This document shows, one piece after another, positions 4,472 to 55,952 of a stretch of 59,668 nucleotides of DNA; the first letter of the stretch is position 1; every line of letters begins with the position of its first letter. The position numbers were made by a program, and so were the translations under genes. The notes beneath the pieces are model-generated. The model ran no database searches. It was not told the DNA's origin and worked only from the letters and a program-made list of their open reading frames with translations. The stretch is from a virus: the IMG/VR virus record IMGVR_UViG_3300009163_000037, positions 1 through 59,668 of that record; one strand, given 5' to 3'.

Positions 4472-5971
4472 TTAGTAATAAGATACCTTGCGCCTAAACG
4501 AACGAATCTCATCTTGCTCGTCCGTTTGTAGGCGTATAAAGCCGCCTTTTCTGAACCTGATTAATGCTTGGGTGGCGGAGTCAACCAAGTCATCATGGTC
4601 TGAGTTAGGGAAAGCGGCCATCTCTTCCATTAGCTCGTCAGCCCAGCGGGTAGAGGGAGCCCATACTTTTCCACTAGCAAACAGATCAGATACAGAGTTA
4701 ATCCTCACCATCTTATCATTACCCCTGCTCGGCGTAAACTCCTGGACGGGGATCCCCATCGCTCTTAATTCAAAGATCAACGGGGCTCCCGAAGCTTTGG
4801 CCTCGACAATAAAAGCATCTGGCTCCCATTCCTTGTAATGGTTAAAGGCTTTCTCCTTTAGCTCAGGGAACTCCATCCGGCGTTTAAAAGCGTCGAGCAA
4901 AATGATGTGGGCGTCGTTCTCGTTCTCATTTAAATAAAACACCCCCCAGGTCGTGCAGGCAGAATAGTCAGCCCGTTCCGATTTTAAAAATGCGGTATCC
5001 CAGCTTTGGATAATAAATTCACACCGGGGGGGTTTATCCTCTTTCCATTCCTTCCACCACTCCCGTTTAACAATAGCCCCCTCCTCAGAGGTCGGGCTTT
5101 GCTGATACTGGGCGTTCCATTTTGAGGCGGGTAGTTCTGACCTTAAAGCCTCCAGCTCCTCTAGCTTCCAAAACTCAGGCCATAGGGGTTTATCACTAGG
5201 AAGGATCGCAGGGAAGTCGATCACCTCCCAGTCGTCGTTTCCTTCTTTATCAATAGAGGACTGAAGGATTCTTCCGGTCAGGTCTCTTTTGGCCCAGCGG
5301 GTCATAACTACAACAATAGTCCCTCCAGGCTGTAGACGTTGTCGTGGGCCAGATGTGTACCACTCGTAGACTTTGTCAAAGACAGAAGGATCTCCGGCGG
5401 CCAGGGCGGCTTCTTGCTCTGAGTGAGGGTCGTCAATAATCAGTAGATCCGCACCTTTACCGGTTACAGTTCCTCCGACTCCGATAGCGAAATATTCCCC
5501 ATCCTTATTAGTAGACCAACGTCCGGCGGCTTTACTGTCTTGCCTTAAACTTACGTTAGGGAAGATCTTGGAGTACTGCTCACTGCCAACAAGGTTCCTT
5601 ACCTTACGTCCAAACCCCACCGCAAGGTCAGCCGTATTAGATGTCTGGATAATCTTCTTATCAGGGTATTTACCTAGAAACCAGGCCGGTAGCATATAAC
5701 TTGCAAACTCAGACTTGGTATGGCGGGGTGGCATATTGATGATCAGGCGTTTGATTTTCCCGTTCACAACGTCCTCAAACTTGCGCGCCATCACTTTATG
5801 GTGCCGGCCATTAATAAACCCCGGCCACATTGAATGAACAAATTTTAAAAAATCTACCTGGGCTTCCTCTCGTACCAAACTTGACCGGTACTCATCTAGC
5901 TCGTCAAAGAAAGCCTCCTGCTCATTCGAGGGCAGAAGGGCTATCGCTTTACTTATGGCGTCAATATTCAT
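4472..5971 (-). CDS. terL: Terminase large subunit (ATPase/nuclease)
   Basis: A 499-residue packaging motor. The ATPase motifs are a deviant Walker A, MPPRHTKSE at about residues 80-88; Walker B, LLIIDDPHSE, near 176-185; and a VVMTRW coupling segment near 221-226. The RNase-H-like nuclease domain shows SWDTA (Asp about 325), FIVEAK (Glu about 390) and SDHDDLVD (Asp about 460). All expected acidic residues are present, so the enzyme looks intact. It cleaves concatemers and drives ATP-dependent translocation through the portal. Start ATG 5971 overlaps the stop of the LexA-like gene (ATGA), linking their translation. Confidence 0.95.
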   Translation of the reverse strand: MNIDAISKAIALLPSNEQEAFFDELDEYRSSLVREEAQVDFLKFVHSMWPGFINGRHHKVMARKFEDVVNGKIKRLIINMPPRHTKSEFASYMLPAWFLGKYPDKKIIQTSNTADLAVGFGRKVRNLVGSEQYSKIFPNVSLRQDSKAAGRWSTNKDGEYFAIGVGGTVTGKGADLLIIDDPHSEQEAALAAGDPSVFDKVYEWYTSGPRQRLQPGGTIVVVMTRWAKRDLTGRILQSSIDKEGNDDWEVIDFPAILPSDKPLWPEFWKLEELEALRSELPASKWNAQYQQSPTSEEGAIVKREWWKEWKEDKPPRCEFIIQSWDTAFLKSERADYSACTTWGVFYLNENENDAHIILLDAFKRRMEFPELKEKAFNHYKEWEPDAFIVEAKASGAPLIFELRAMGIPVQEFTPSRGNDKMVRINSVSDLFASGKVWAPSTRWADELMEEMAAFPNSDHDDLVDSATQALIRFRKGGFIRLQTDEQDEIRSFRRKVSYY

Positions 5972-6189
5972 ATGTTGCGCATCGACAAATAACTAGGCCG
6001 GACACTGCGGGCGCTCCTGCTCATCCTTTTACATATCCCAAGATCACACAACTTCTTCACAATCCGATGAACATTCCCGCGCCCCTTATCCCCCGTCTGG
6101 TACATGATATCGTCTATCGACGGCCCATACCCAAAGTTCTTCCAGTACTCATCTATCACTAGGAAGACAGTCCTCTGTTTCTCAGTCAT
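5968..6189 (-). CDS. LexA-type winged-helix DNA-binding protein (no peptidase domain)
   Basis: A 73-residue protein starting MTEKQRTVFLVIDEYW. It follows the LexA N-terminal domain layout: helix 1, FGYGPSIDDIM as the SxxEI-like turn, a short GNVHRIVKKLCDLG recognition region and a basic C-terminal wing rich in Arg. The LexA serine/lysine peptidase domain is absent, so it should not respond to RecA cleavage. I chose ATG 6189 because GAAGGA precedes it; ATG 6237 would add 16 residues and place the start next to the operators. Two tandem 21-bp dyads lie just upstream (6238-6280), suggesting autoregulation. An alternative is an unusual second terminase-associated DNA-binding subunit. It is coupled to terL by ATGA. 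Confidence 0.75.
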   Translation of the reverse strand: MTEKQRTVFLVIDEYWKNFGYGPSIDDIMYQTGDKGRGNVHRIVKKLCDLGICKRMSRSARSVRPSYLSMRNI

Positions 6190-6237
6190 TTGATATTCCT
6201 TCTTCTTAACAAGGTAGGGGCTGGTAGGGTGCTTCAT

Positions 6238-6280
6238 AACTGTATCACTGATCTAGTTCAACTGTATCAATGATCAAGTT
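6238..6280. promoter_or_regulatory. Tandem 21-bp dyad operators upstream of the LexA-like gene
   Basis: Two adjacent dyads, 6238-6258 and 6260-6280, each read AACTGTATCA, one central base, then TGATCTAGTT or TGATCAAGTT. Symmetry is AACT-n2-ATCA-n-TGAT-n2-AGTT. Their starts are 22 bp apart, about two helical turns. They lie between the small terminase stop and the LexA-like gene, where a promoter for that gene and terL would sit. The left half contains CTGT, the half-site bound by LexA-type domains. Operator function is inferred. Confidence 0.7.
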
Positions 6281-6308
6281 GAAAAAAATATATACCCCCC
6301 ACCCTTTT

Positions 6309-7052
6309 TTACATGGACTCAAAGGGGGGGTCTGATTTTTGATGAGATTGTTTGAGTGGAATAGTATGTAATGACTCCCCTGTGCGCGGCTGGCCCAAAA
6401 GCGGGGCCCCCTCTCCGGTGGGGTCGCTGGGGGCTGGATCGTCGATGGGCTGGGGATCGCTGGCTGCAGCTGGAGCCTGGGCGCCCTTGATCTCTGCCAG
6501 TAGGTCTAAGGCATCATCGGCCACTATGTTGGCGTCAACTGTAACGGCCTGCAGCCTGGACAATAGGCGGGCGCGGATATCGTCGGATCGATTGACTGTG
6601 GTTATCTCTTTGCGCTCTACGAAGGCGCCTACCTCGAAGAGGGAGCCCAGTAGCTTCAAGCATTGGACGCGGGACGCTGGGGGAAAGTCATCATCGAGGG
6701 AGTGCTGCACCAGCTGCTGCACGAGCAGAGCCTTCAGCTGAGCCGGTGTTCGGTGTTTCTCAGCCTCTATCGCCAGCTTGTACGCCTCTATCTCCCGCGA
6801 CACGGCAGGGTTTGCGGCCAGCTCATACGGCGCAGTATGTAGCGTGGCTGGTGTAGCGTCTACCTTGTAGTTATCCCTGTACGCTTGTGCCTTACTGGCC
6901 CCTAGTGCTACTGCATGGGCAAAGCTTTTCTGTTTCGCAGTTAATGCGGGCTTTTTGCCTGTGCCACTACTTAGCAATGATTCAATCGGGATAGTGTCTA
7001 GCCCTTGCTTGATCTGCGCGCGCGTGAGCTTTTGAGTTTGTTGGTTTGCCAT
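6309..7052 (-). CDS. terS: Terminase small subunit
   Basis: A 247-residue protein with a basic helical N-terminal region (LTAKQKSFAHAVALGASKAQAYRD near residues 34-58) like the DNA-binding domain of small terminases. A helical oligomerisation segment follows (KHRTPAQLKALLVQQL), and the tail is Pro/Asp-rich. It would recognise the packaging site and recruit the large subunit. I chose ATG 7052 (MANQQTQKL) instead of an ATG at 7136, because the longer form would run through a regulatory repeat array and starts with an atypical sequence. A direct-repeat array begins right at the start codon. It is separated from terL only by the LexA-like gene. Confidence 0.75.
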   Translation of the reverse strand: MANQQTQKLTRAQIKQGLDTIPIESLLSSGTGKKPALTAKQKSFAHAVALGASKAQAYRDNYKVDATPATLHTAPYELAANPAVSREIEAYKLAIEAEKHRTPAQLKALLVQQLVQHSLDDDFPPASRVQCLKLLGSLFEVGAFVERKEITTVNRSDDIRARLLSRLQAVTVDANIVADDALDLLAEIKGAQAPAAASDPQPIDDPAPSDPTGEGAPLLGQPRTGESLHTIPLKQSHQKSDPPFESM

Positions 7053-7724: not shown

Positions 7725-7989
7725 GACCATGACCGCGAAATTCTCCGGAACGTGCAGCCGCACCGGCCAGCGCATACAACGCGGGCAAACTATCGTGTAC
7801 GACACTGTCAAACGAACGGCCAGCCTTTTAAATTTCGACGGATTCGAGGGACGCGAGAACGCGGCCGGCGACTATATCCGCGACGATTATGTTAGCCATG
7901 TTATCGATTTTGGCATGGGGCGCCAGTACTACCGGAACAAAGCCGGACGCTGCGAGGATGCCCCTTGCTGCGGATGCTGCACGATATGA
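7717..7989 (+). CDS. Small Cys-containing protein, 90 aa, unknown
   Basis: The product has a CSRTGQRIQRGQTIVYD segment like a knuckle that binds a metal in small zinc-ribbon proteins, and its C-terminus carries a Cys-rich cluster (CEDAPCCGCC). A metal-binding role is possible. The start overlaps the end of the previous gene. ATG 7729 is an alternative start. The end overlaps the next small membrane gene by ATGA. Confidence 0.6.
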   Translation: MLKTMTAKFSGTCSRTGQRIQRGQTIVYDTVKRTASLLNFDGFEGRENAAGDYIRDDYVSHVIDFGMGRQYYRNKAGRCEDAPCCGCCTI

Positions 7990-8099
7990 GACAGCACTAT
8001 CAGATCCCCCGCCGCAACTGTATCAGTGATCTAGTTGGCGCCGTTATTTGCGCCATTGTCTGGGGCGCCGTTTTTTACTTGTTTTACTTTGGAGCTTAA
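7986..8099 (+). CDS. Small membrane protein, 37 aa
   Basis: A short gene in ATGA overlap with the previous stop. A basic N-terminus (RQHYQIPRRN) is followed by a single hydrophobic segment, DLVGAVICAIVWGAVFYLFY, giving a likely N-in single-pass membrane peptide. The coding sequence contains one of the 21-bp dyads (8016-8036). Its function is unknown; a holin-like or membrane-targeted host-takeover peptide would fit. Support comes from coupling, compactness and the clear TM segment. Confidence 0.6.
   Translation: MRQHYQIPRRNCISDLVGAVICAIVWGAVFYLFYFGA
8016..8036. promoter_or_regulatory. 21-bp dyad operator copy
   Basis: The left half AACTGTATCA, centre G and right half TGATCTAGTT are identical to the copy at 6238 except for the central base. 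It lies inside the 37-aa membrane gene and about 65 bp before the next start. It may act as a roadblock or an internal operator. Confidence 0.6.
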
Positions 8100-8102
8100 A
8101 TT

Positions 8103-8312: not shown

Positions 8313-8998
8313 GCTACACATTCATTCGCGCGAGCGCAAACCGCAAAACCGGCCCGATCCCCCAAACCTATAGCCTGCGCGCCACTTGCCCGCCCAGCTG
8401 CGCGCATTATGGCGCCGATTGCTATGGTGAAGACTATTTCACCCGTATGCAGTGGGATAAAGTACCCGCGCGCGGCGTGCCCATCGACCAGCTGGCCGGC
8501 CATATCCGAAGCCTGCCGCCGCGCCAGCTTTGGCGAATGAATGTCGCTGGCGACCTCCCGGGCATTGGGGAAAACGTCGACGCCTACGAGCTGGGGCAAA
8601 TAGTGGCCGCGAATATCGGCCGCCGAGGGTTTACCTATACCCACAAGCACAGCGCCCAGGCTATTAATTGGGCGCGCCACGCGACCGCATGGGGCTTTAC
8701 CATTAACCTAAGCGCCGATGATGCCGGCCACGCCGACCAGCTCAGCGGGCAGGGTTTGCCTGTGGTTTGTATTGTCCCCAGCGATACCCCCAAACTGTCT
8801 TACACGCCCGAGGGGCGCCGCATTGTGGTTTGCGAATCCCAAACCCGCGACGAATCGACGTGCGAGAACTGCGGCAATTGGGACGCATGGTGCGCACGCG
8901 CCGACCGCGATTTTATCGTTGGATTCCGAGCCCACGGAACCCGAGCAAAGCGCACCGACCAGCTGGCGCGCAAAGTAATACCTATTTTGAAAGGCTAA
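8309..8998 (+). CDS. Cys-rich phage protein (DUF7227/gp88-like)
   Basis: A 229-residue protein with an N-terminal CPPSCAHYGADCYGEDY cysteine motif, a central LWRMNVAGDLPG and GRRGFTYTHKH block, a VVCESQTRDESTCENCGNWDAWC cysteine cluster and a final FIVGFRAHGT. This matches a conserved phage family (DUF7227/gp88-type by memory) with no proven activity. The spaced cysteines suggest an Fe-S or zinc site. It is the largest protein of the early rightward cassette and is coupled to the gene before it. Confidence 0.7.
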   Translation: MSYTFIRASANRKTGPIPQTYSLRATCPPSCAHYGADCYGEDYFTRMQWDKVPARGVPIDQLAGHIRSLPPRQLWRMNVAGDLPGIGENVDAYELGQIVAANIGRRGFTYTHKHSAQAINWARHATAWGFTINLSADDAGHADQLSGQGLPVVCIVPSDTPKLSYTPEGRRIVVCESQTRDESTCENCGNWDAWCARADRDFIVGFRAHGTRAKRTDQLARKVIPILKG

Positions 8999-10969: not shown

Positions 10970-11751
10970 AAGAAAGGGCGCAGGGACTCGGCTGCGGCCT
11001 CTGTCCCTACCCTCTGCTCGAAATCGTTGAAATCCTCTCCAGCCTCGCCTACCCAGTAGCGCGGGGCTATTTTTTTGGCAGCTCCAAGACCTACTGGATC
11101 GTTATCGGCGACAACGAAAGGGGACTGTATCCGGCTCCCGACTTCTATCATGTTCCCAGCTGAAAAGCAAACGTGGATTGTGTACCGCTGGCGCAGCTGC
11201 TTTAGCGCTCGACGCACCGACATACCAGTAGCCAGCCCCTCGACTAGGATATTCGGCCCCTTGTTGTCAATCGTCAGGCTGGCGCCTTTCGTTCGCTGGC
11301 CGGCTAAGAATCTCTTTTGACCATCCTCTTGGATCAGCTGGCAGCCAACAAGATGCCCATCGATGCGCATTGGGACTGCAATTTGCCTGTGCCACACCTT
11401 CACTTTGTCAGAAAATCCCTTGCGGATCATGTAGGGGTGCTGCTCAACTGTAACGCTGTTACAGATGAATGCCGCCCGCTTTGCTGCATCGGCTTGTCGT
11501 TCCAGTCGCTCTTTGTCGGCCAGCTGGCGCCTGATTCCCTCCATCGGATCAGGGATGTAAGGCTCGTCAGACCGGTAGAGAATGTGCTTATCGTGCATGG
11601 CAAAGTTAATCACCGCGCCCTTATGCCCATCAAAGATATACGCGCCATTGCGCTTTGCTGGCCGGTCAACTGTACCAACCCGCATCCACTTACCCAGCGT
11701 CAATCGGTCAATCAATAACCCATTGTCGCGGGCGAATTCTTCAAACGTCAT
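10966..11751 (-). CDS. Toprim-domain DNA primase
   Basis: A 261-residue protein with an N-terminal region of about 100 residues lacking a recognisable zinc-binding motif, and a C-terminal Toprim fold. The motifs are NILVEGLATGMS (catalytic Glu about residue 170), VCFSAGN and VVADNDPVG (the DxD of Toprim, about 215), followed by AAKKIAPRYW. It would lay down RNA primers at the phage fork. Start ATG 11751 overlaps the helicase stop (ATGA), so the two are translated together. The length fits minimal phage/plasmid Toprim primases. A weak dyad lies at 11446-11466. Confidence 0.8.
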   Translation of the reverse strand: MTFEEFARDNGLLIDRLTLGKWMRVGTVDRPAKRNGAYIFDGHKGAVINFAMHDKHILYRSDEPYIPDPMEGIRRQLADKERLERQADAAKRAAFICNSVTVEQHPYMIRKGFSDKVKVWHRQIAVPMRIDGHLVGCQLIQEDGQKRFLAGQRTKGASLTIDNKGPNILVEGLATGMSVRRALKQLRQRYTIHVCFSAGNMIEVGSRIQSPFVVADNDPVGLGAAKKIAPRYWVGEAGEDFNDFEQRVGTEAAAESLRPFF

Positions 11752-13247: not shown

Positions 13248-14045
13248 TTACGCAGCTTTATCTGCTCTGCGTTTCCAGTAATTAATCTGCTTGATCATCT
13301 CTGAATTCTTAGACATGAATTCATCACGGCTTTGAGTTACAGAGGCAAGCTGTGCTTCCAGTTCCCGCACTTGCTCACGCAGCGATTCAATGGTCTCTTG
13401 AACCTCGGCCTGGGCCTCCTTGGAAACAGGCAGCGATCTTACTGCAAGAAGATCTTTGAGCTTGGTGTTTTCATCAGAAATTACAGAAAATTCTTTCTTG
13501 ATTTCTTCAAACTTATCTTCTTCTTCAAACTCTTGAACGGGCGCTACTTTACGACCAATGTTTGTTGTGTCCCTGCGTTTGCCATCCTTGCCAACAGTGC
13601 TGGACTTCTCAAGACCCAAAGCTTTGCGAACGCGACCAACTGTAGCTTTGCTCACCTTGCACACATCTCCGATTTGAGAGTCCGACAACTCACCTAGCTC
13701 TATGTCTTCAAGAGCCAGCCGGACTACATTGCGGGCCTCTTCTGCGCTGCGTGGCTTGCCGTGTTCAGCATTAGCTGCAAGGCTTGCGATAAATGCATCA
13801 CGTTTGGTGCCTTGCTGGACTATAGCGTTGACATCTTTGTATCCAGCGCGTTTGTGTGCGTGCCAGCGGTGGAATCCATCGGAGAGCCAGTAGTTCTTGC
13901 CGTCAAAGTGCAGGTCTACTGGTGGAAATTCTTTGCCCTCAAGCATTGCTTCTGTGTAGTGCTGGACTAGGCTATCGTCCAACTCTTTGCGTGGTTGTGT
14001 TCCGCCATCTAGGCGGATCTTTGTCAGCAGGATTTTCTCAGTCAT
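13248..14045 (-). CDS. ParB/Srx-like protein with C-terminal coiled coil
   Basis: A 265-residue protein. Residues 1-95 have the ParB-N pattern: a Q-P-R box, WLSDGFHRWHAHKRAG (DGFHR at 56-60) and GTKRDAFIASLAANAEHG. A helix-turn-helix-like region follows (LSDSQIGDVCKVSKATVGRVRKALG, about 118-142), then a long charged coiled coil to the C-terminus. ParB folds can bind or hydrolyse nucleotides. Here it may mark DNA for replication or transcription control. No ParA partner is seen, so plasmid-like partition is unlikely. Its start overlaps the 56-aa gene upstream. Confidence 0.8.
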   Translation of the reverse strand: MTEKILLTKIRLDGGTQPRKELDDSLVQHYTEAMLEGKEFPPVDLHFDGKNYWLSDGFHRWHAHKRAGYKDVNAIVQQGTKRDAFIASLAANAEHGKPRSAEEARNVVRLALEDIELGELSDSQIGDVCKVSKATVGRVRKALGLEKSSTVGKDGKRRDTTNIGRKVAPVQEFEEEDKFEEIKKEFSVISDENTKLKDLLAVRSLPVSKEAQAEVQETIESLREQVRELEAQLASVTQSRDEFMSKNSEMIKQINYWKRRADKAA

Positions 14046-18176: not shown

Positions 18177-18206
18177 AATGTAACTCATGAATCAGCATCG
18201 TGTCAA
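18177..18206 (-). promoter_or_regulatory. Leftward promoter for the 18158-10966 operon
   Basis: On the minus strand TTGACA (18206-18201) is followed after 18 bp by TACATT (18182-18177). The start codon lies about 20 nt past the -10. The exact consensus -35 box and the position make this a good sigma-70-type candidate. Confidence 0.55.
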
Positions 18207-18550
18207 CTGTTGCATCATCATGCCTAAGCCCTCTTACCCGTTGACCCTCCCTCCCCTGGACTTGGGCGCTGGATGGCTAACGACTCTTTATCAAGGTGCC
18301 ATGACTGGTTTTTATGCAGTCTTATCGGCCGGCCAAGCCGCCCTCCCCTGGAATCCCGATAAAGCCAGTTCTCACCGGCTTGTCGATCATCTCCCAGCGG
18401 ACTAGGGTATGTGTCATTACTGACAACCTTGTTTATTCCTTTTTGCTTACGCTACTTCGGAGGTGCGGGTCACACCGAGGTTCTGTCTTTTCTTCCACGC
18501 TGGCGATACAACCACTTGCTAACGGATGGAGTCCGGTCGCGGTCGCCAAC
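18207..18550. other. Non-coding stretch between divergent operons
   Basis: No convincing gene was found. The open frames on the + strand have no ribosome sites and unusual composition. It contains a 7-bp inverted repeat (TTATCGG at 18322-18328, CCGATAA at 18356-18362). Location between divergent early operons makes it a possible origin or regulatory region, but nothing in it proves this. Confidence 0.4.
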
Positions 18551-18646
18551 GAAAAAAGCCGTTACTACTGCACTGGGTCGCTCCCCCAAAAAAAGGGGCC
18601 AATGCATGAGTAACGGCTTTCAATCTGTTGTGAGCGACTACAACAG
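18551..18646 (-). ncRNA. Candidate small structured RNA with terminator
   Basis: A leftward transcript starting near 18646 would fold into two hairpins. The first is CTGTTG/CAACAG (18646-18625). The second is a perfect 12-bp stem AAAGCCGTTACT/AGTAACGGCTTT (arms 18620-18609 and 18566-18555), enclosing CCCC-T7-GGGG and ending in a T-run. A TATAGT -10 box lies at 18657-18652 with an AT-rich tract upstream. The second stem alone may simply be a terminator. No protein is encoded. Confidence 0.4.
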
Positions 18647-18651
18647 TTACA

Positions 18652-18700
18652 ACTATACACTATTTTTGGGTAGCGCAAGCTTTTTTTAAAAATATTTTTG
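18652..18700 (-). promoter_or_regulatory. Candidate leftward promoter with AT-rich upstream tract
   Basis: TATAGT at 18657-18652 and a poor TTGCGC at 18678-18673 (15-bp spacing) are preceded by an A/T-only tract at 18681-18699 that resembles an UP element. The dyad at 18703-18723 sits just upstream. It would transcribe the structured RNA candidate. Confidence 0.35.
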
Positions 18701-18702
18701 GA

Positions 18703-18723
18703 GACTGTATCAGCGATACAGTT
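18703..18723. promoter_or_regulatory. 21-bp dyad operator copy, most symmetrical
   Basis: ACTGTATC, a 3-bp centre AGC and GATACAGT form a perfect inverted repeat. Both half-sites are CTGT with nine bases between them (CTGT-n9-ACAG), one base more than the enterobacterial LexA box. It overlaps the tail of a leftward terminator and lies upstream of the candidate RNA promoter. Confidence 0.65.
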
Positions 18724-18751
18724 GAAAAGAACCCCCCAGAAGCCCGGGGGG
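18723..18751 (-). terminator. Rho-independent terminator after the 18791 gene
   Basis: On the minus strand a CCCCCC/GGGGGG stem (18751-18746 with 18737-18732) with an 8-nt loop is followed by TTCTTTT. It lies about 40 nt past the stop of the nuclease-like gene. Confidence 0.7.
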
Positions 18752-18790
18752 TAAAGACTCTGTAAAAGAGTCAAGGAGACAAGCAAGTCT

Positions 18791-22489: not shown

Positions 22490-22760
22490 GTTGTTAGACG
22501 CTGCGCGTGAGCTGCCCTGCCAGCACTGTCAAACCCAAGACGGTACGGTGGTGGCCGCTCACAGCAACCAGCTGCGTGACGGAAAGGGGCGGGGCCTCAA
22601 ATCCCACGACTACAGAATAGCGTCACTCTGTTACAGTTGCCATGCCGATCTTGACCAGGGAGCCCGCATGAGTAAGGCCGAAAGACTTGAGATGTGGGAG
22701 GAAGCACACCGCAAGACAATCGGCCTTATGTTTGAGCGAGGAATTATTGGGTTGCTCTGA
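22473..22760 (+). CDS. HNH-type nuclease (DUF1364/YbcO-like)
   Basis: A 95-residue protein with CQHC near residues 16-19, [21 protein letters not shown] and [12 protein letters not shown] near 52-63, the Cys/His arrangement of YbcO-type HNH proteins found in lambdoid nin regions. These are thought to cut or resolve DNA. I chose ATG 22473; the earlier in-frame TTG lacks a ribosome site. It is the last gene of the recombination operon, and its stop overlaps the convergent giant gene by 17 bp. Confidence 0.75.
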
Positions 22761-25700
22761 CTTTGTCGTTGAACTCTTTCATCCTTTCGGTCTTTCTTTC
22801 GTCAATTTTCTTAATCTCTTCTTTAGAAGCCTTGCGCTCAATTGCAAGACGTTTCTCTTTGTTGAGCTTGCTAACGTCCCTTTGGGCAGCGTTAGCTTCT
22901 TTCCACATAAAGGCGGTTGGATTAGCCTTCATGTATTTATCAGTGGGCTCTTTGTTTGTTTCCCGCTGTTTAATCTCATGCTCAAACGTATTCATTCTCT
23001 CTAGGTTGTCATAGAACCTGGACGAGATAGCGGCAGGAGTTTTTGTTTCGCCAAGGAACTTACCAGCAACTGGAACCCGATACATTGGCTGCTCTTCACC
23101 TGCGACTTTAGCCCTAACTGATTCACCAGCTTTAACCATTTCACGGAATACACCACCAAAGTACTGCTCAGCCAAGTAGTCCAGCTGGTCTGCTGTTGGG
23201 CTAATCTTTCCTTTTGTATGCAATGTTCCAGCCGGAGAGGATGACCAGTTAAGGAAATAAGCAATGCCTTTACTGATGGCGCTTGCGCTTTCCCGTGAAC
23301 GCTCATAGCCAGGGGTCTCCTCGCCTGGGCGGTCTTTCCTTGCAATTGGCCGGCCAAACGCATCTTGATTCATTAAAACGTTTGCAATTGGATCTACAGG
23401 GGTTGGCATAATCTGCTGCCAAGAGGCGCCAATACCCAGTGGGTTTACAGAATCCAGCATCATTGGAAGAATATCAAAGATCTTGTCGGAAGCGGTTTCA
23501 TTGCTCTTCATCATCTTTGTTTTGATCATGAATGCTTCTGTCAGCATACGACCAATTCCAGGCAGCATACTAAAGCCTGGGGGGTATGGCGGATACATAA
23601 CAAAGTACTTACCACCACCGGTTGGAACAACAAACGCTTTTGCTTTAACAAACTCCGGTGGATCATCATCATCAAAGCCAGCAGCCGCCAATACTAAGGC
23701 TTGCATAATGCCAAGCCCAATACCTGAAGCAATGATTGCTTTTCCTTTTGGCCCTGTCAAAACTTTTTTGACTGTTACCGCGCCTTGAATGCCAGGGTTA
23801 ATAAACGAGAACCACGTTTGAAGTTTGGGAACTACTGCTCCCTTTTTATCAAAATTAAGGGTTGCGTTCTTAGACAAGCTTGCGCCCTTGTCATCACTCA
23901 TGCCGTTGTCAATGACTGCAACCTTAAACACGGCTAAGCGCACGGCGCCTTCCATTGAATCGTTATAGTCAGACAAATATTCAAACAAGTAATGGAGGCC
24001 AGCATTAATTTTGCCGCGATCCATTTCTGCAAGTTTTTTATCAAGCAGACTGAGTTCATCAGTAGTTGCTCTAACGCTCAACAGTCCTTTGATTCCCCAG
24101 CCCTTTTCCAATTTCTCAAGCCTGGTTTTTTGCTGAATAAAGTTTGCAGTAATTCCAGTGCCGCCGCCAGCCAGCTTCCAGCGACGATGTAGATCACGCC
24201 ATTCTTGCGGGCTTAACTCACCCTTCTCAAATACTTCATTTCCTTCACTCTTATCCCAGCCACGTTGATTTTTATAGATTGCAGCCATTGCAGGAAGAAT
24301 GCTCTTTCTAACTTTATCTTGTTGACCAGCAAGCTCTGTTGTTGTGAGCTGAAGCATTCCAGTGCCAACGTCACGGCCAAAGTTAAAGAAACCAAAAATT
24401 GGGTTGTATTGCGTATTAATAGCGGATATCCAGCGCGTGATCATCCCAGCAGTGCCAAGAAAAATGCCCAGCTTTTCAACGTCTAGGTTTCTTAACGACT
24501 TGACCATCCGCAGCGCGCGCTCATCACTTGGGTTAAAGATGATGAACCAGTCCTGACCATTAATACGAACAGGGAATACGTTGTCCATGCTACGCATAGC
24601 GGGATTTACAGCATATTTAACAAGGCCGGTTTCTTTATCAATGGTTGGAGTCTTTGGCTCTTGAATCATGTTCTCTGCTTCATCCGCAGATATACCAAGA
24701 GACTGAACTTCTTCTTTAAACTTCTTAATGCTTTTTAATGCATTAGGATTAACTGGCAACCAGAAGTTTGGATTTGGGTTTGTCAGCACCAGCCCCATCA
24801 ATGATTTGCCAATACGGATTTTTTCTGCTCTATCAATAGCGCGTTTACGCTGCAACACAATGTTTTGCAAAATGTTTGCAACGTCTTTGGTTGAACCAAA
24901 AGCGCGTTTAGAGAATGATCCCCTGGTTCCAAACCCTCCACCAGTGCCTACACCATGATGGACAAAGTCCAGGTCTTCACGCTGCAATGGAACATAGTGC
25001 TCGTATGCAGTGTTCCATGAGTTAACAGTATCCTGAATTTCAGCGCCAGACTTAACCAAAATATCCTGAGTTCCATCAACAATGCCATCAAACATCTTGG
25101 CAATTTTGTTATAGATTTTTAGCTTGTCTTGTGGAAGCTCCGTCAAGTACTTGAGCGCGTCTTTTGTCGTGATGCCAGATCCGCCATCGGGTAATGATGG
25201 GTTGATTTTGGCTACTTGTATGTTGCGCTCTTCAGCATGACGGTTATGCATATATGCCTCAAGCTCAAGAATGCTGACTTTGTTGTCATACATTTCTTTA
25301 ACAATCGGCATGATCTCATCATCTATAAAAACTTCTTCACGCGCAGCTTTACGGCTAACATAGCTTTCGTTTTTAAGATAAGGATCAATCTGTTCGTTAA
25401 CCAGCTCGCCACGAACCTTTCGGATTTCCTGCATAACACTCTTAAGGTCATGCTGCTTATCAAGGAAGTTATAAGCAAAGGTATCCATTGCGTTTGGTAT
25501 TGGCGCCTCAAACACCGGCTCTGGAGCTTCGTTGCCCCTAAAGTTCTTGCGTTCAATGGAGAAGTAATCACCCTCACCCAGCATATTGTGGGTAATAAGC
25601 TTGCCGTCAGATTTTGCAAGACTATCCAAGGCGCGGATAATTGACGCATCTGAATTTAAACCAAATATTGACTTGATCTTCTGGCCTAATTCTTTAAGCC

Positions 25701-28700
25701 AGTTTTTTAAGCGCGCAAGTATGCCACCCTGTACAGCGTCATAACGGCCCTTAACAACATCAGAGCCATTTACAGCCCAAAATTCAGATGGGTTGAAGTA
25801 CTCATAATGCTCTTTTGGAACCATACCAAGAACAAGCATTTCTCTTGCAAAATCTGCACTAGATCCACCATTTTGCAAAGCCTCCAATGTGGCCTTTATT
25901 TGTTCGTAGATTTTTTCTGCACCTTTGGGAACCTCTATTGCGCCCATATGGTTATTTCCATAATGGGATTCCATTAGCGCAGCAAAGAAAAGCTTTTCAT
26001 TGGGCGTCTTGGCATTCTTATTAGCCTTTGCCAACTGGGATGCCCAGGCTTTGCGAATGGCCTGTTGAACCTTGGCTGGCATCATGCGCTCAAGGTGATG
26101 CAAGATCTCGTGTACTGTTGTTAAATTAGATCCGCCTTCTTTAATAAGAGTCATTATGCGTCTATAGGCGTTGTATTGCCCACCTACACCAGCCTTACTT
26201 TTACCAACAATACTAATACCCAGCCCCTCAACTAAGCTTTCGTTTTGCACCATAAACCAAGTAGCCAAATCACGAGCTTCACGGGTAATATCGCCAGACA
26301 AAACAGCTTCATTCAATCTCTTTTGAATGTGCAAGAAACCGCGTTTGCGTTCAGCAACATCTTTTTCAGATTGAAGTTCTTCATCCGCAAGAATAGCGGC
26401 ATCCGATCTTTCAACATATTGCTCATCGGTCATGCGACCATCTTTGCGCATTCGGTTGTAAGTCTTTAAAGTACGCTTTAAAGAGGTGGAGCGTTTTTTC
26501 TCTTCTTCTTTAACGTAACCATCAAGGCTATAAAAGTTTCTTTCTTTTGGCTCTTTTGGTTTTCCTGGAGCCTCTTCTTCAGTCTTAACCTCAAGCTTGG
26601 CTACCTCAGTCTCACGGCCAGCCACCTTGCGCTCAACCTTCAGCTGGGGCGCAGCTGGCTTTTCTGCTGGGCCTAGAACCTCAACTTCAGGATCGCGAAC
26701 CATAACCTTGTTAGAGTCTTCAGCAAAGTCAAACCCAAACTTCTTGTACAGGTCTTCCAGCTGCTGGCTATCAAGGCCAAAGTTCTTTTCCTTGACGTTT
26801 ACAAGGGGAACCGGCTCAATGTAGAGAGTAACTCCATACTGGTCAGCGGCATCAACGATGTTTTGGAGCGCCTCGTTGGCCTTCCCCTGGTTGCGCTTGG
26901 CCTGGTCTACCAGCAAAGCATTGATCACCAGGTCGGTGGACTCACCCTGACCTGTCAGGACGGCATTCTTGTTCTGGAATAGGACAAGCTGGGGCGTTAG
27001 CGAGATACGCACGCCGTCTTTCTCAAACGTACGATGGGGCTCGCCACCTTTGTCAACGTAGGTGCGCGGGTTATCAAGAGCCAACACCTCGTAACCGTCA
27101 TTGAACAGCACGGAGGCCATAGGGTAGCGTAGGTTGCGTCCCTCTGGCGTTTCTACGGGCTTAGCCTCCTCTTGTTTGCTTATGTATCCAAACTTTTCAG
27201 CATTTTTTATTGATTTTGCATCCATTGATAAAGGAATATTTTTAACCCCAGAATCACGCAGATATGCATATCTATGTCGCCCATCTCCAAAAACGATAGC
27301 TCCATTTTTATCTACGGAAACATTTGGTGCCTCTATAGATTTTGCATCTTTAATAAATTCTGCAAATTTTTTGTATCGGCCTTCTATCCCACCCTCTCCG
27401 CCTTCGCCAACATATTGCCATGTTGTTTTGGAAAAGGCTTTATCAAAAACATCAGTGTTAACTTCAACTAATTGATTTCCCTTTTCCAGTGGGTGCATTG
27501 TTACTGGAACATCTTTTCCATTAACTTGAATAACATCTTCAGTTTTTGCGGGAGTTTTTTCTTGCTCTTGCTGGAACGCTAAGTCAAACTTTTTCATGGC
27601 GGCATCGTAAACTTTACGGCCTGCCAAGAATTCATCATCACCAATCTCTTGAGCGCGATAAGCTTTTTGTATTTTTTCAAATTCTTTAATGGCTACATTG
27701 GATTCATCCAACGCTTTTTGGTACTCCTTTGATGGAGGCACTTCTTGTATTTCTTGTTTTCCATTAATTATGTAACGGGCGATAGTGGCTGCTTCCTCCA
27801 AGTCACCATCGTAGTACTTGTCTTGGAATTCAGAGCTGTCAATGGCTTTTTCATCAGCCTCTGTAGCGCCATCAAATGCATTGGGATCAACGCCGTAATA
27901 GGTGCGAGTCAAGCGCTCAGCTGGCGTCATGCTCTCAGCATTGTTAGCCATGAAGAATGCATAAGCAAATCCTTCAGGCGTCAACGAACGGGCGTACTTG
28001 TCCTTGCCGCTTAGTTTGACTATCTTTGAACCTTCAGTCGGCTCAACAGGGGCCATAGGCAGATCATTGTCAAAGTTACCCCACAGCAGGGTTTTCTTTG
28101 TGTATGGATCGCCGTAGTAGTTGGGATCAAATGTTAGGTGAGCTGGCGGCAGATTGTTCAGCTTTGCAATACGGCCAACAGGGTTCTCCATTGCCCAGAT
28201 CTTTGGCTGGAGAAACTCAACTGTACGCAGTACTTGTTTTACTAGCTCATTGCTAATCTCTGTCTGTCCTTTGGCATCTTTCTTGGCCCAGAACTGAGCG
28301 CCTGAAGAAGCAAAGTCTGTGCATGGAGGGGCTGCAAGAATGCCCCAGATTTCCATATCGCCAAATCCTTCGTTAAGAAGGTACTCTGCACCAAAGTCGT
28401 TAATGTCTTCGCCTGTTTGGATATCAAAGGTATAGACACTGTAGCCGGCTTCTTGCCAGGGCTTAGCCCACTCACCAGACGCATCAAACAGGCTCATGAT
28501 TGTCCTGTTGAAATTCTTGCTGGTCTTGCCTTGGCGCTTGGCTTCTGCTTTCCATTCTTCTAATTGAGCTTTGGCCTCTTCAGGCGTCAGCATTTCGGTT
28601 GGTTTAGGCTTTGCAGGATTTTCAGCCGCGTGCATCAATGCGTTATAACGAATGTCAAACGGATTTTCTTCATCCCGCGTTTTGCTTAACAGCTCACCAA

Positions 28701-31614
28701 CAGTGGAGGAGTCGGCTTCAAAAGGAACAATTTTAACGCCTTCTTCTTCAGGAGCCTCTTCAGCAAGAAGATCTTTCTGCCCACGCGCAGCCGCAACATC
28801 AGCAGCACGATCACTGCCTGTTAAAGTAAATTCACCAACCTCTTTGTCAGCCTTAGCCCTGTCTTCAGCCTCTTTATTAGCCTTAGCTTCAGCGGCCTCC
28901 GCTGCCTCTGCCTTGTTACGATACTCTTCTTTGGCCCTTAATCCTTCTGGGGTTGGTTTAGTAAGCGTTTCTCCTTCATCTGGCTCAGAAGGTGGAATCT
29001 TGCTTTCGGGCTCAACGCTGCGAGCATTGATTTCACCCTCTCTTTGTTCGTCTGCTGCTTTTTGAAGCTCAAGATTTTGCTCCTCAGTGGTTAGGTAATC
29101 GTTAACAAGTTCTTCTGCGTCTTTAACAGAACCAAATATTGTTTCAATCTCTACTTGTGCGTCATAAGGAATGTAGTCCGCTGAACGCATCTTGTCTTTG
29201 ATGTACTCTTCTGCGGCCTGACCGTCAAAGTTAGGGACATCTGTCCGCATTTTGTACGGCAAAAATTCATTTAGGTCTCCATCTGAAACCATGTCTGCAA
29301 TTGATTTGCCGCCTTGTTTAGCTTTAAGCTTCTTTTGATAAAGCTGTGGCTTTTTACCAAACAGCTCAGCCATATCGGAGTCACCTAGCTTGCCGGTCAA
29401 CGCTGACCACAAACTAAGTTTTGGACTACCTTTAATCTGGCTAATATCTCTTTCACCTTTTGCAACTCGCGTTTCAGCATCAGCAACTTCTTCTGGCTTG
29501 GGAACAGCGCGGCGAATTAATTGCTGGGCTTGTGCAGCAGAGTCGTTGGCACGCTTGATTGCAAGATTGAATTTTTCTGGATTAGCGCGTTTTTGATCGT
29601 TTTCCAGGGCGTAGTGGCCCGACAAAAGCTGCAAACCATCAGACAATAAATTGCTGTATTGGGTCTTTAAATTACCCAACCCTAAAGGAAACTTCTTATC
29701 GTTAACTTGATAGCCAAGATTATTAAGCGCTGTGGTTATATCTTGGATAGATGAGCTTACTTTTTCAAAAGCAGCTTTTGCTTCAGGTGATGCCGTCTTT
29801 TGAAATGTATCGTAATACTTTTGTTCATTAGGCTGCAAAAACTCAGACCATTTAAAGCCTTCTTCTTTAGCCTCAGTCTTGCCTTGCTTTGCCTGAAACT
29901 CTTGTAACTTTTCTTTGTAAAAGGGAAGGGAGTTTTCTTTCACCATTCCTTTTGAAAGGCTTCCGCGCATTGCATCCGCAAAACCCTTTTCACCAGCGGC
30001 CTCTATTTGATCCGCAATACCAGATACCTCTTGCTCAAATGGAGTCAAAGTCTTTTTGGGAGCTTTCTCTTTGTACTCTGCATCAATGCGCGCCTTCTCA
30101 GCTTCAAGCCTATCGTACTGCTCTTGCGTAATACGGCCTTCTCTGACGGCATCTGGGGCTTTAGCATATGCAGAGTCAATTAATTTCTTTTGCTCTTCAA
30201 TTGGGCGCTCACCCAGATTGCTTAGCGTTAGTCTTTCAGCAGGGGCTGCGGGCGCTTGTTGTCCTTGCGCTTCTGCTTCGACGGCTTTAGGGGCTTCAAC
30301 GGCACTTGGGATTCCTTCAATAGAAACAGGGGTTGGGGTAGTTGGAGCTTGCTCCTCCATTTGCTTGCGAACAAATGGGCCAGTCTCTGCAACTGTTGGT
30401 TGAATTTGAGCTTTAGGTTCTTTAACTGTCGCAGCTGATACAGTTGGTTTCTCTCCTAGCGCTTCACGCAGCATAGCCTCCGTATCCATAGACTCGGAAG
30501 GGGCAGCTGCAAGCGGGCCTTTGCTTGGAGCTACAGGCGGCACTCCAGGCGGCGGTGGAACTTCCGCTTCAGGGGCTCCAGGCGGGGCTTTCCTTCTACC
30601 GGCCAGGGCAGTAGCTCCAACACCCATAGCGCCACCAGTCACTATGCCCATACCACCGGCTTCAGCAGTTCCCTCCATTAGCGGTCTGCCTTGGGCGTAG
30701 TTCATCCACATCTGCTCTTGAACAGACTGTGGAAACTCCTCAAACAAACCTTCAGATACGCCCGCAGCGGAGGCTCTTAAGGCAAAGTCTTTAACTGATT
30801 TTGCTCCACCCATAGTGGAGCCACTAGCCAGCAATGTATCTATATCATCAAGTCCAAGCTTGTTAGCCAACTTGCCGCCAGCAATACCAAACGCAGCTGT
30901 ACCTAAGCCGGAACCTACAGCTGATGCAACCTGCTTACCACTTAGTAGTTGGTCTTTTGACTCTTGGCGCATTTGCTCTGCTGCACTACCAGCACCAACT
31001 ACACCCTCGCCCAATGCGCCTGCCAAGTAAGGCGCCAAAGCTGGGGCTGCTTTCATCAAGCCTTTAGCTACTCCTGCGCCGCCAAGCATTGATGCCAATG
31101 ACTCTATTCCTGCTTGAGCAACAACACTTGGGTTTTCAAGTGCGGCGCCTACTGTAGGAAGTAAACCTTTTGTTTCACTTACCCGGCGGCTGGCAGCTTG
31201 TTGGGCCTCGGAGTAATAACTGTCCAAAATTTCCTTAGCGTCTTTAGGCTTAAACCCAGCGTCTTGCAAAAGTTTGCCGGCGTAACCCATTGTTGGCAGG
31301 TCAGCCACACCAACAGCAAATTCAGGAACAGCAATTGCACTTTTAAGAAACGCAATCCCAAGATCTTTAGTTGTACCGGAAAGGGTGCGTTCTGGGATTT
31401 CTTGCTTTCTCTTTTCAACAGCAGCCAAATAAGCATCCCTGCCCATGCCAGTAATCTGGCCCTCAACATTTTTTGTGATGGCGCTGGCCCCTGGAGATGG
31501 CGCAGGGCTCCAGCTACTAGCAGCAATCTGCTGTAACTCTAAATCCGTAGCATCAGCTGGCCCTTCAATATTGAGAATGGAACCGTCAGGAGCTTGGACT
31601 TTAAAGATAGGCAT
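22744..31614 (-). CDS. Giant polyvalent virion protein (2956 aa)
   Basis: Approximate domain order: a virion-protein-like N-terminus ([18 protein letters not shown]) with hydrophobic patches at 90-110 and 185-245; a Pro/Ala-rich linker at 340-480; a long helical region; a C5-cytosine methyltransferase at about 1035-1210 ([23 protein letters not shown] near 1100, AMENPVGRI near 1143, YTKKTLLWG); a ParB/Srx-like segment with [13 protein letters not shown] near 1446; a GNAT-like segment with [13 protein letters not shown] near 1571; a zincin-like HEILHHLE near 1836; and an LPD38-like C-terminal region from about 2400 with a hydrophobic stretch near 2625. Such polyvalent proteins are thought to be injected with the DNA to modify it or block host defences (for example DarB of P1). 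It overlaps the convergent HNH gene and is the last late gene. Confidence 0.85.
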
Positions 31615-35893: not shown

Positions 35894-38041
35894 TTATTCC
35901 TTCTTAGTGGCTGCTTTTAAGGCATCTTTTGCTGTAGTTTTTGCATTTTCAATGATTGTATTCATAATCGCCTTTTGAAAATCTGGCGTTTGACCTTGTA
36001 AAAGGCTGGTCAAAAGCTGTCCACTTACCCCACTAAACGCCTTTTGTAGCTCTGGGGAGAGTGTATCTGGCATTGCCCCCTTGATCAAGGAGTTCGTAGC
36101 CATGCCTGTACCTGTGTTTATCAGGGAAGCCAAGCCAGTTTTACCCAAATCCTGGCCGGTTGCAAGCGCGCTAAGTTCCGCTCCAGATAGGTTTGGTAGC
36201 GCCTTTGTAAGGTACTGATCCAACATTGGAACGCCCGTGTTCATAGTGGGCATATAGTTTTGGGCAAGCTGGGTTCCGGCACTACCTAAAGCACCACCAA
36301 CAAATCCTTTGCCAAAGTCTCCTCCGCCAAGAGAAGACATACCGCCGCTTACCAATCCTGAACCTAGCGCCTGGGACAGTACAGTTCCCATTCCGGCTTG
36401 AGCCAGCGCGCCAGCTGCAAGAGATCCTAGCCCGCCAGTAGCAGCCATTAAAGCCAGTTGACCTATTGGCCCCATTTTTTGTATATCGTGAACCGCGCCG
36501 CCAAGTACGCCGTAATTGTGGGCATCAGTTGGAATTGGGCTGGCTTTACCTGATGCATCCCAGCTTGGGACATACTTAACGTCATTACTTGCCCATAAAT
36601 CCCTACCTGGCAATGAGTACCCAGTAAGTTTGCCATTTAAATCATAACTGGCAGTAACATTCCAATCGCCATTTACATCTCCAGGCATTTTTACTTCTTT
36701 GGTGTAGCCGGTTAATGTTTCTTTTCTTTCTCCAGAATTTCTATCTCTGGACGTTTGATAAGTCGGCGTTGCATCTTTAGGTTGAGCCGGAATTTGCTCT
36801 GTGATTGTTTGTGTCCTTGGCTTGCCATCTCGGCCTGTTCCAACTGTCACCTCCCTTTGCCGGGTAGTAGGTTCGCTAAACTCAAGCTGGGCCGGCGTAT
36901 TGGATACAGTGTTTTTATCCAAGCCCATAAATGTCGCAAACATCCACGGCTGGGTTTTGCCGCCATACGACTCATCAGCAGCGTGTTTGCTTACATCAAT
37001 GACTTTTTGAATGGCTGCAGCCTGGTCGCCGTACTGGGCTTTAAGCGCAGGATCTTCGTTTACAGCGGCCACAAAGTCGGTATAGCCCTTAGCTACATCC
37101 ATGCCTTTAGCGGTTCCGGCCACAGAATCTCGCAACTCCAGCAGCGGTACTTTCTTTTGAATATTGTCTAGCGCAGCGCCATACAGACCAGAAAGGCGGG
37201 GATCTTTCTTGGATTCATCAATAAACGCCTGGATATCAGCAGCAGTTTTATTGGTAACTACATCTGTAAACCCAGTGGAAAAGTTTCTAATAGGGTCAAG
37301 GTAAGCTTTAATTTCATCAGCAGACTTACCCATCGACTTGGCAAGCTGGTCATCTGTAACACCGTACTGGTTCTGCAACTGTAACAGTGATTTAGTTTTA
37401 TCTGTATCACTGACAGTCGGCTCAGATAGCTTTCCAACCAGGCTGGTGATGCCGGTGTTAAACGTGTCAAAGATTTTATTGACAGCGGTAGAATTTAACC
37501 CTGAATATTGGGCTATTTCGGCTGGCGTCATGTTGTTGGTGATCGCCGCCTTATTGATAAGTCCAAGCTTGTCAAAGTCAGACTTGCTTGTATCAGCCAA
37601 TGTAGTGGTAATAATGTTCTTTAAATTACCGCCAATCTCTGGCTTTGCAGCTTGCTGGAATTGGGCTTTTTCAGTGGCATCAATAGTCTCGCCAAACTTT
37701 GGTTGCCAATACGCCAAGTCAGCTGCGGTGGAAGTGCGTCCTAGATTTTGGTGGTAAAGCTCATCCACCCCGGCTTCTTGCCTAAATTGAGCTGCTTGTT
37801 CAGGGGTAAGAGTAGCTCCGCCAAACCGTTGCGTCCAGTAATCAAGCCCAGGCTGGTCAGCAGCACGACCTAGGTTTTGCTGGTATAGGTCTTGAATGGA
37901 TACAGTTTGTGGTTGTACAACAGGAGCAGCCGGAGCAACTGTAACAGGTGGTACAGTTGGTGTAAATGCAGTTACAGGCGCCTGCTGCAAAGACGCCAAT
38001 CCAGCTGGATCATCCGCATATTGGGTTAGTGTATCTATCAT
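35894..38041 (-). CDS. DUF4214-repeat virion protein, 715 aa
   Basis: The N-terminal third contains two repeats of the DUF4214 type (SIQDLYQQNLGRAADQPG then DELYHQNLGRTSTAAD), known from adhesins. The centre is helical. The C-terminal 300 residues are Gly/Ala/Leu-rich with hydrophobic stretches (PIGQLALMAATGGLG) that could insert in a membrane at ejection. ATG 38041 lies one base after the previous stop; the longer frame to 38062 would overlap it, so I start at MIDTLTQYADDP. A degenerate dyad copy occurs at 37377. Confidence 0.7.
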   Translation of the reverse strand: MIDTLTQYADDPAGLASLQQAPVTAFTPTVPPVTVAPAAPVVQPQTVSIQDLYQQNLGRAADQPGLDYWTQRFGGATLTPEQAAQFRQEAGVDELYHQNLGRTSTAADLAYWQPKFGETIDATEKAQFQQAAKPEIGGNLKNIITTTLADTSKSDFDKLGLINKAAITNNMTPAEIAQYSGLNSTAVNKIFDTFNTGITSLVGKLSEPTVSDTDKTKSLLQLQNQYGVTDDQLAKSMGKSADEIKAYLDPIRNFSTGFTDVVTNKTAADIQAFIDESKKDPRLSGLYGAALDNIQKKVPLLELRDSVAGTAKGMDVAKGYTDFVAAVNEDPALKAQYGDQAAAIQKVIDVSKHAADESYGGKTQPWMFATFMGLDKNTVSNTPAQLEFSEPTTRQREVTVGTGRDGKPRTQTITEQIPAQPKDATPTYQTSRDRNSGERKETLTGYTKEVKMPGDVNGDWNVTASYDLNGKLTGYSLPGRDLWASNDVKYVPSWDASGKASPIPTDAHNYGVLGGAVHDIQKMGPIGQLALMAATGGLGSLAAGALAQAGMGTVLSQALGSGLVSGGMSSLGGGDFGKGFVGGALGSAGTQLAQNYMPTMNTGVPMLDQYLTKALPNLSGAELSALATGQDLGKTGLASLINTGTGMATNSLIKGAMPDTLSPELQKAFSGVSGQLLTSLLQGQTPDFQKAIMNTIIENAKTTAKDALKAATKKE
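37377..37397. promoter_or_regulatory. Degenerate dyad copy inside the DUF4214-like gene
   Basis: AACTGTAACA, G and TGATTTAGTT differ from the canonical dyad at one symmetric position (ATCA to AACA). It is in coding sequence and may be chance. A further ATCTGTATCA half-site follows 23 bp later, echoing the tandem layout upstream of the LexA-like gene. Confidence 0.3.
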
Positions 38042-52074: not shown

Positions 52075-52742
52075 TAACTGACCTCAACCCTAAGCTGGCC
52101 GCTGCGATAAGCATCCTGGCGCTCCAGGCCATCGCCCAGGCGTTTAGCAAGCGCAATAGCTTGTGTATATTTTTGGTTGTAAAGAGCCATCATGTCGGCT
52201 TCACCTTTCATGTAGGTGTAAGCTTCAACCAAAGATCCATACAACAAAACCGAATCAAAGTTATCGCCTAACCAAGTCTGACCACTGGAAACGGTAGTAA
52301 TGGACTCGGGGTAATAGTAGTAATGCAGCTCAGCTGAATACGTCGTATCTGGCGTGGGGCCAATGATAAATGTCAACTCATTGCTAATAGTGCTACCCGA
52401 AACTGCTGGGCCAAACAATCCGTAGTATTTAGGCGTGCCAGTAGACGTAGGGTTTGGATATGCTTCACGCATGAAGTTCACATCTTTGTTGAGCAAGTAT
52501 GTGTAACTTCCACCACCATAAGGAAAAATTGCCAATGAATATGGCGCAAGAAAATCGGTAGGGCAAGCCAAGTATTTATTGTTTGCCGTAAGATTTCCCG
52601 TCACGTTTTTACGCAACGATGGAAACTGTACCATGTTATAGATGCGCTGCTCTGCCTGTGTAATAAACAGGTTTACATCCACCGTTTGAAAGGTGTTCTC
52701 CGTGTAATCGGAAATCGCAACTACAAGTGCAGCGTAGTTCAT
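52074..52742 (-). CDS. Head-tail adaptor-like protein, 222 aa
   Basis: It starts MNYAALVVAISDYTENTFQT and has ITQAEQRIYNMVQFPSLRKN and a helical C-terminus KGEADMMALYNQKYTQAI. This is the fold pattern of adaptor proteins that dock under the portal. AGAGG is upstream. The tail-completion role is inferred from pattern and position. Confidence 0.65.
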   Translation of the reverse strand: MNYAALVVAISDYTENTFQTVDVNLFITQAEQRIYNMVQFPSLRKNVTGNLTANNKYLACPTDFLAPYSLAIFPYGGGSYTYLLNKDVNFMREAYPNPTSTGTPKYYGLFGPAVSGSTISNELTFIIGPTPDTTYSAELHYYYYPESITTVSSGQTWLGDNFDSVLLYGSLVEAYTYMKGEADMMALYNQKYTQAIALAKRLGDGLERQDAYRSGQLRVEVS

Positions 52743-55781: not shown

Positions 55782-55952
55782 TTAATCCTTAAATTTAGAT
55801 TTTTTACGCTTGCGTTTAACTGTATCAGTGATCAAGTTGACTTCTCCACCGCCAGCGTATTGAGTAAAGTCAGTGTTGTCCCTACGCTTTTTCCTGACGC
55901 CTTTGGGCATCTTATCAGGACTAATAGCTCCCATGCCGCGACTTGCAATCAT
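55782..55952 (-). CDS. Small basic protein carrying an in-frame dyad, 56 aa
   Basis: It begins MIASRGMGAISPDKMPKGVR and ends with a basic KRKRKKSKFKD tail. The ATG overlaps the stop of the 52-aa gene (ATGA). The codons for VNLITDTVK contain the 21-bp dyad at 55818-55838. Probably one of the small basic virion proteins. Confidence 0.55.
   Translation of the reverse strand: MIASRGMGAISPDKMPKGVRKKRRDNTDFTQYAGGGEVNLITDTVKRKRKKSKFKD
55818..55838. promoter_or_regulatory. 21-bp dyad operator copy inside a late gene
   Basis: AACTGTATCA, G and TGATCAAGTT make a canonical copy. It lies in coding sequence of the 56-aa gene. If bound, it would act as a roadblock within the late operon. Confidence 0.55.

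Follow-up and report, generated by a model that had tools for sequence, protein, structure and literature searches.

Dispersed palindromic sites in a freshwater phage and its relatives are probably read by a ParB-like protein and vary with its recognition helix

A 21-bp palindrome recurs at widely separated places in a freshwater phage virus record, which raises the question of which protein reads it and for what function. The window, i.e. the whole stretch of 59,668 nucleotides that we analysed, contains genes for TerL, portal, GroES-like, primase, helicase, ParB-like, exonuclease, and Erf proteins. No near-identical cultured phage was found for the window, and its nearest TerL matches (55–59%) were Pelagibacter phage HTVC027P, phage DSL-LC04, and phage 023Pt_psg01.

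We scanned the window for the pattern AACTnnATCAnTGATnnAGTT. Exact matches were found at 6238, 6260, 8016, and 55818, a match with one mismatch at 37377, and a match with two mismatches at 18703. The count with up to three mismatches was eight, compared with an expectation of 0.24, and eight was not attained in any of 100 shuffles. A half-site scan, which gave no matches in five Markov shuffles, added 11446, 30424, 37937, and 52624, bringing the total to about ten dyads. An earlier note on this DNA had reported the four exact copies, a tandem pair 22 bp apart (starts 6238 and 6260), and a recurrence beyond chance, and these observations were all reproduced. It had also described 18703 as a variant in both halves; each half is indeed one base off AACTGTATCA (GACTGTATCA and AACTGTATCG). 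Its statement that the dyads occur at early, late, and intergenic loci likewise held, with 8016 and 55818 lying within small ORFs. A window-wide excess of palindromes was not found (16 versus 7–13 in shuffles); thus, the signal is confined to the AACTnnATCAnTGATnnAGTT family. The four exact copies share the plus-strand orientation, and the adjoining genes run in both directions.

Dyads A1 (6238–6258, AACTGTATCA.C.TGATCTAGTT) and A2 (6260–6280, AACTGTATCA.A.TGATCAAGTT) are both exact matches; as for the other dyads, no strand is assigned to them. A1 is located 49 bp upstream of an internal ATG (6189) in the gene of a LexA-like protein (5968–6237, minus strand), and A2 lies directly after the T-run of a minus-strand terminator-like hairpin, read from the sequence as a C-run/G-run stem with a T-tract (6281–6330). 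The exact dyad at 8016–8036 (AACTGTATCA.G.TGATCTAGTT) is within a small plus-strand ORF (7986–8100), and its counterpart was not found in the aligned part of the sister contig L202. Dyad C (11446–11466, AACTGTAACG.C.TGTTACAGAT) was detected in the primase gene by the half-site scan. Thirteen genomes of the window's clade have a dyad at the same primase codons; as a dyad occurs at that codon position in this clade only, we no longer treat site C as strong evidence. Dyad D (18703–18723, GACTGTATCA.G.CGATACAGTT, two mismatches) is directly preceded by an intrinsic terminator on the minus strand (18731–18752). Dyad E (30424–30445, AACTGTCGCA.GC.TGATACAGTT, half-site scan) is in a giant gene, and about 14 relatives have a dyad nearby. 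The 2956-aa product of this gene (22744–31614) has an LPD38 domain and a segment resembling a C5-methylase. One structural gene contains both a hybrid dyad (37377–37397, AACTGTAACA.G.TGATTTAGTT, one mismatch) and a dyad from the half-site scan (37937–37958, AACTGTAACA.GG.TGGTACAGTT), and a weak dyad from the same scan is in a structural gene at 52624–52643 (AACTGTACCA..TGTTATAGAT). The last exact dyad (55818–55838, AACTGTATCA.G.TGATCAAGTT) lies towards the 3' end of a small ORF on the minus strand.

We compared the window with related contigs, 20 of which were analysed whole or nearly whole; all viral sequences are uncultivated, and we assigned the dialect labels manually on the basis of dyad searches. 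The LexA-like protein is encoded on 80 contigs with 84–100% identity, and most of them have an upstream palindrome, often of different sequence. A distinct set of dyads is dispersed over each well-sampled relative, e.g. AACTTTAACA-n-TGTTAAAGTT in G009, ATATTAACA-n-TGTTAATAT in G018, ATATTTTCA-n-TGAAAATAT in G017, ACTGTAACTAGTTACAGT in G016, and ACACTAACA-n-TGTTAGTGT in G011. The dialects across about 16 syntenic relatives include TAACA-n-TGTTA, TTTCA-n-TGAAA, and TTCCA-nn-TGGAA, and the spacer between the half-sites varies from 0 to 2 bp. G002, G019, and G020 had no clear dyad set, only weak or unclear dyads. Of the homologous places, A precedes the LexA-like start by about 47 bp and often has two dyads, C is inside the primase, D is 61–68 bp beyond gene 18791, and E is in the initial part of the giant gene; further dyads are in structural genes.

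In the 14 genomes having A, D, and E, the half-sites differed at 1.5 of 10 bases between places within a genome, versus 3.7 of 10 at the same place between genomes, and none of 1000 permutations reached the observed value. Between genomes, the dyads change symmetrically and in a compensatory manner. Positions that are kept while the sequence tracks the genome are what a single trans-acting reader that differs from genome to genome would be expected to produce. The earlier note had regarded the dyads as the sites of one regulator, and the agreement of sites within each of about 16 genomes that keep their positions supports this. It had also named lack of conservation in relatives as evidence against a shared site; the sequence is not conserved, whereas position, symmetry, and within-genome agreement are.

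Two minimal pairs illustrate the change. The tree of helicase and primase places G017 and G022 as close sisters. Their dyads at place E lie in the same coding sequence, with hardly any difference in the flanks; both read GATATT-core-AATATG, and the cores are TTTTCA/TGAAAA versus TTATCA/TGATAA. Both arms differ between these sisters at each orthologous dyad; place A behaves like E, and D differs in its flank too, so that two of the three sites have nearly identical flanks. Between the window and its sister L202, the ParB-like proteins are 91% identical, with A versus M at residue 134, and the A sites differ accordingly; site C in the primase is of the TAACA type in both. Within the window, A, D, 8016, and 55818 are of the TATCA type, 37377 is half-changed, and C, 37937, and 52624 are TAACA-like. 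This mixed set may reflect a specificity switch in progress, or could reflect sites of different strength.

Dyads of other sequence are found farther away. The distant relative MW202545.1 (L339) is a complete circular phage genome whose ParB-like protein is 45% identical over 135 aa. It has eight dispersed TACTAGTC-n-GACTAGTA dyads, a different dialect (at 65, 10175, 10202, 27596, 34032, 43565, 49118, and 49147), versus clusters of one to three in shuffles; two are in its own ParB-like gene, two are beside TerL, and one follows a terminator. In L309, whose ParB-like protein is 37% identical, two ACATGAAAG-nn-CTTTCATGT dyads at 8857 and 19229 possibly represent a further dialect.

Two conserved proteins of these phages have recognised DNA-binding domains, namely the LexA-like and the ParB-like protein; 20 further small or early ORFs gave no Pfam DNA-binding match. 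The ParB-like protein (13248–14045, minus strand, 265 aa) is our proposed dyad reader. Its AlphaFold model (mean pLDDT 81) has a ParB/Srx fold, a helix-turn-helix (HTH), and a long C-terminal coiled coil, and Foldseek matched it to ParB (7bnk, E = 5.6e-9), Noc (8.7e-8), and KorB (2.3e-6). By its modelled fold, a ParB_N (Srx-like) domain followed by an HTH, the protein is a member of the ParB superfamily, although its sequence scores are under the curated cut-offs (PF02195, 24.8 versus 26.3; TIGR00180, 24.4 versus 58.5). A palindromic site whose bases track residues of the recognition helix, as judged from the sequences, is a further feature shared with ParB, Noc, and KorB. The GERR motif of CTP binding is replaced by GFHR, and ParB-type sliding can therefore not be assumed; across 40 relatives, G57, H59, and R60 show no variation. 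No ParA family match was found among about 30 larger ORFs of the window in a PHROGs scan, and the window may be a fragment. In view of the altered GERR motif and the missing ParA match, we do not class the protein as part of a ParABS system. Integrase, plasmid replication, and lysogeny genes were not seen in the window. In bacterial genomes, the ParB-like matches were all remote (up to 52% over short stretches), and no host was indicated.

We then measured covariation between proteins and sites as the adjusted mutual information (AMI) of each half-site base with 846 variable columns of five phage proteins in 45 genomes with assigned dialects. For half-site base 3 (from the centre), residue 134 of the ParB-like protein ranked first of the 846 columns (AMI 0.86), and the top seven columns were all from this protein. 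Residue 134 was also first for base 4 (AMI 0.57), followed by residue 137; bases 6 and 7 were confounded with phylogeny. Residue 134 was M in 35 genomes, all with an AA core, and was not M in ten, all with another core (Fisher 3e-10, with rows that are not independent). On a tree of helicase and primase, residue 134 and the core changed seven times each; in all four supported independent pairs, they changed together. A sign test on as few as four pairs is unable to give 0.05; thus, the weight rests on the rank result and the minimal pairs.

The recognition helix (residues 133–143) is encoded at 13617–13649 on the minus strand, and residues 133, 134, and 137 vary with the dialect. Helices of the SxMT type accompany TAACA-type cores in 35 of 35 genomes, with a shifted centre in G016. 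SKAT, the helix of the window, goes with TATCA, SISTVG with TTATCA, SLATVS with TTTTCA, SVQT with ATTCCA, and SSKTVS with AGACA (L230/G021). In Caulobacter ParB, R173 contacts parS base 1, and Q173 of Noc prefers adenine there (PMC7383237). In our own alignment on the invariant Ser, as opposed to a solved complex, phage residues 133 and 134 would correspond to Caulobacter R173 and S174, and half-site base 6 to parS base 1. K at residue 133 is accompanied by G at the equivalent base in four of four genomes, and the G017 site TTTCA-GG-TGAAA has the core and spacing of parS. There were exceptions. TAACA dyads occur in L273 (place D) and L252 despite a VQT helix. L127 (SISTVGRVKK) has one TAACA dyad with the helix IST, and its CTGTCA-type dyads at A and beyond the primase keep T at base 3. 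Residue 134 was predicted in advance to be S or A in the TATATCA dialect, and a ParB-like gene was absent from all five contigs checked.

The positions of A and D relative to transcription units were compared among relatives. In 13 genomes compared, dyad D stands directly after a C-run/G-run terminator with a T-tract (11 of 13 by regular expression), and the terminator-then-dyad order was also found at A in most relatives. A consensus sigma-70 promoter was not found at A in the window, nor were convincing consensus promoters at A and D. A terminator followed by a bound dyad suggests either a protein-fenced terminator or the operator of the next unit. Several other features were observed. Beyond dyad D, neither 18189–18700 of the window nor the D region of G003, G004, G014, G015, and G017 contains a long ORF. 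In several relatives, this region begins ACACGCATGGGGATTG...CAGTCCCCAGCCGTGTTGGT, resembling a structured RNA; Rfam gave no significant match for the D region of the window. Hairpins of the form CAAACCCAGC-nn-GCTGGGCTTG recur in early regions (6129 and 8163 of G002, L042, L215, and other relatives) and are probably bidirectional terminators. The capsid gene has a palindrome, ACTTGTAACG-nn-CGTTACCnGT, at about nt 62 of the match, conserved in G003, G004, G012, G014, G016, G019, and others. As this major capsid palindrome is alike in all dialects, it probably reflects a coding constraint.

The earlier note had proposed a binding test of the LexA-like protein; as the regulator, this protein would read the dyads and autoregulate its own operon. 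This protein (PF01726, 26.5 bits), encoded just upstream of TerL, is among the most conserved of the group. It has a LexA-type winged helix, the two A dyads are just upstream of its gene, and the ideal dyad includes CTGT...ACAG, the SOS-box half-sites. However, LexA-like proteins with no differences are paired with four dialects, in G017, G022, L277, and L293, and the ParB-like recognition helix changes with each, giving four helices. As an unchanged protein accompanies four dialects, we rejected the LexA-like protein as the reader and regard this explanation as highly improbable. Moreover, CTGT and ACAG are separated by n9 in the ideal dyad, not by the n8 of the SOS box, and CTGT is absent altogether from the other dialects. 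The protein is a DNA-binding domain alone, unlike LexA with its C-terminal peptidase, and the best LexA column for half-site base 4 had an AMI of only 0.25. There is a similarly slight chance that the dyads are not protein sites and are mobile palindromes or were selected for hairpin formation in RNA or DNA, with symmetry kept by pairing. The symmetric, compensatory changes between genomes and the tolerance of a 0–2 bp spacer agree with pairing, but the stems in the window are imperfect (8 of 10 pairs), and covariation with helix residue 134 would be left without explanation. A and D also follow terminator T-runs and thus are outside the preceding transcript, which argues against hairpins.

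Based on these sequence comparisons, we consider with high confidence that the ParB-like protein reads the dyads, which are very probably parS- or KorB-operator-like sites of a ParB-family protein without a ParA seen. It is unlikely, in our estimation, that it does so as a partition or genome-organising system, serving to maintain a phage-plasmid or pseudolysogenic state or to compact the DNA prior to packaging. Its family is ParB/Noc, SopB of the N15 prophage-plasmid binds four inverted-repeat centromere sites (PMC7205306), and the intragenic dyads have no obvious promoter link, all of which would suit such a role. Against this, no ParA, integrase, or plasmid replication gene was seen, and sites A and D are at transcription-unit borders. 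Given a ParB-like reader, we hold it quite likely that the protein is mainly a transcription regulator, most likely KorB- or stoperator-like by analogy. The overall reading, in which the dyads are dispersed operator- or centromere-like sites of a ParB-like protein acting as a phage-wide transcription regulator, is probable.

As a regulator, the ParB-like protein would bind each dyad as a dimer, with one HTH per 10-bp half-site. Its place at A and D would be directly behind the intrinsic terminator, where it would fence adjacent transcription units apart; the TerL operon and the leftward operon containing its own gene would thus be silenced or insulated. The intragenic sites may serve for loading or as roadblocks. 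Co-infecting relatives with a common dialect would cross-regulate each other, which would favour new specificities, and the window is possibly in mid-switch between the TAACA and TATCA types. We tentatively extend this to a possible, somewhat doubtful, proposal that the ParA-less ParB-family protein is a phage-wide immunity-like regulator with a rapidly diversifying operator dialect, with mutually unreadable site sets in close relatives and with the sites of the window in the middle of replacement after a specificity switch.

How a regulator with many dispersed targets changes its DNA code with its network unbroken is a long-standing question. This phage group has at least six natural specificities (TAACA, TATCA, TTTCA, TTCCA, AGACA, and TGTCA) on otherwise similar backbones. 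The word and the residues that would read it changed together in dozens of relatives, which appears to be a natural record of a regulator switching its code. As one to three recognition-helix residues track the specificities, gel shifts could put the code to a direct test, and the pairs window/L202 and G017/G022 are practical starting points. The findings also suggest a role for a phage protein hitherto annotated only as a 'ParB-like partition protein' or 'nuclease', and point to a protein-fenced terminator.

Several known systems share features with these dyads. ParB–parS and Noc–NBS likewise have palindromic sites with specificity set by recognition-helix residues, and the TTTCA dialect with a 2-bp spacer matches the parS core TTTCA-CG-TGAAA. 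In contrast to them, no ParA or SMC role was seen here, the sites are spread over about 60 kb with a spacer of 0–2 bp, and one phage group has many specificities instead of two. Phage N15 also encodes a ParB-family protein, SopB, with several inverted-repeat sites (IR1-4; PMC7205306), but N15, a linear plasmid prophage, also possesses SopA, whereas no ParA was found here. The stoperators of Cluster A mycobacteriophages (L5 and Bxb1), whose motifs vary among relatives (PMC6550527), are similarly many genome-wide sites of one regulator, some at promoters and some in genes. However, stoperators are 13-bp, oriented sites bound by a monomeric immunity repressor (PMC9283540), asymmetric and mostly in one orientation to transcription, whereas the phage dyads are palindromic and ParB-type, with no lysogeny genes seen. 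KorB of plasmid RK2 with its OB operators, located near and distant from promoters (PMC11790492), has the same ParB-family fold with an HTH. It differs in that the present protein is from a tailed phage, has a C-terminal coiled coil, GFHR for GERR, and no identified KorA partner, and its site specificity varies among close relatives. The intragenic phage dyads recall both stoperators (PMC6550527) and distal KorB operators (PMC11790492).
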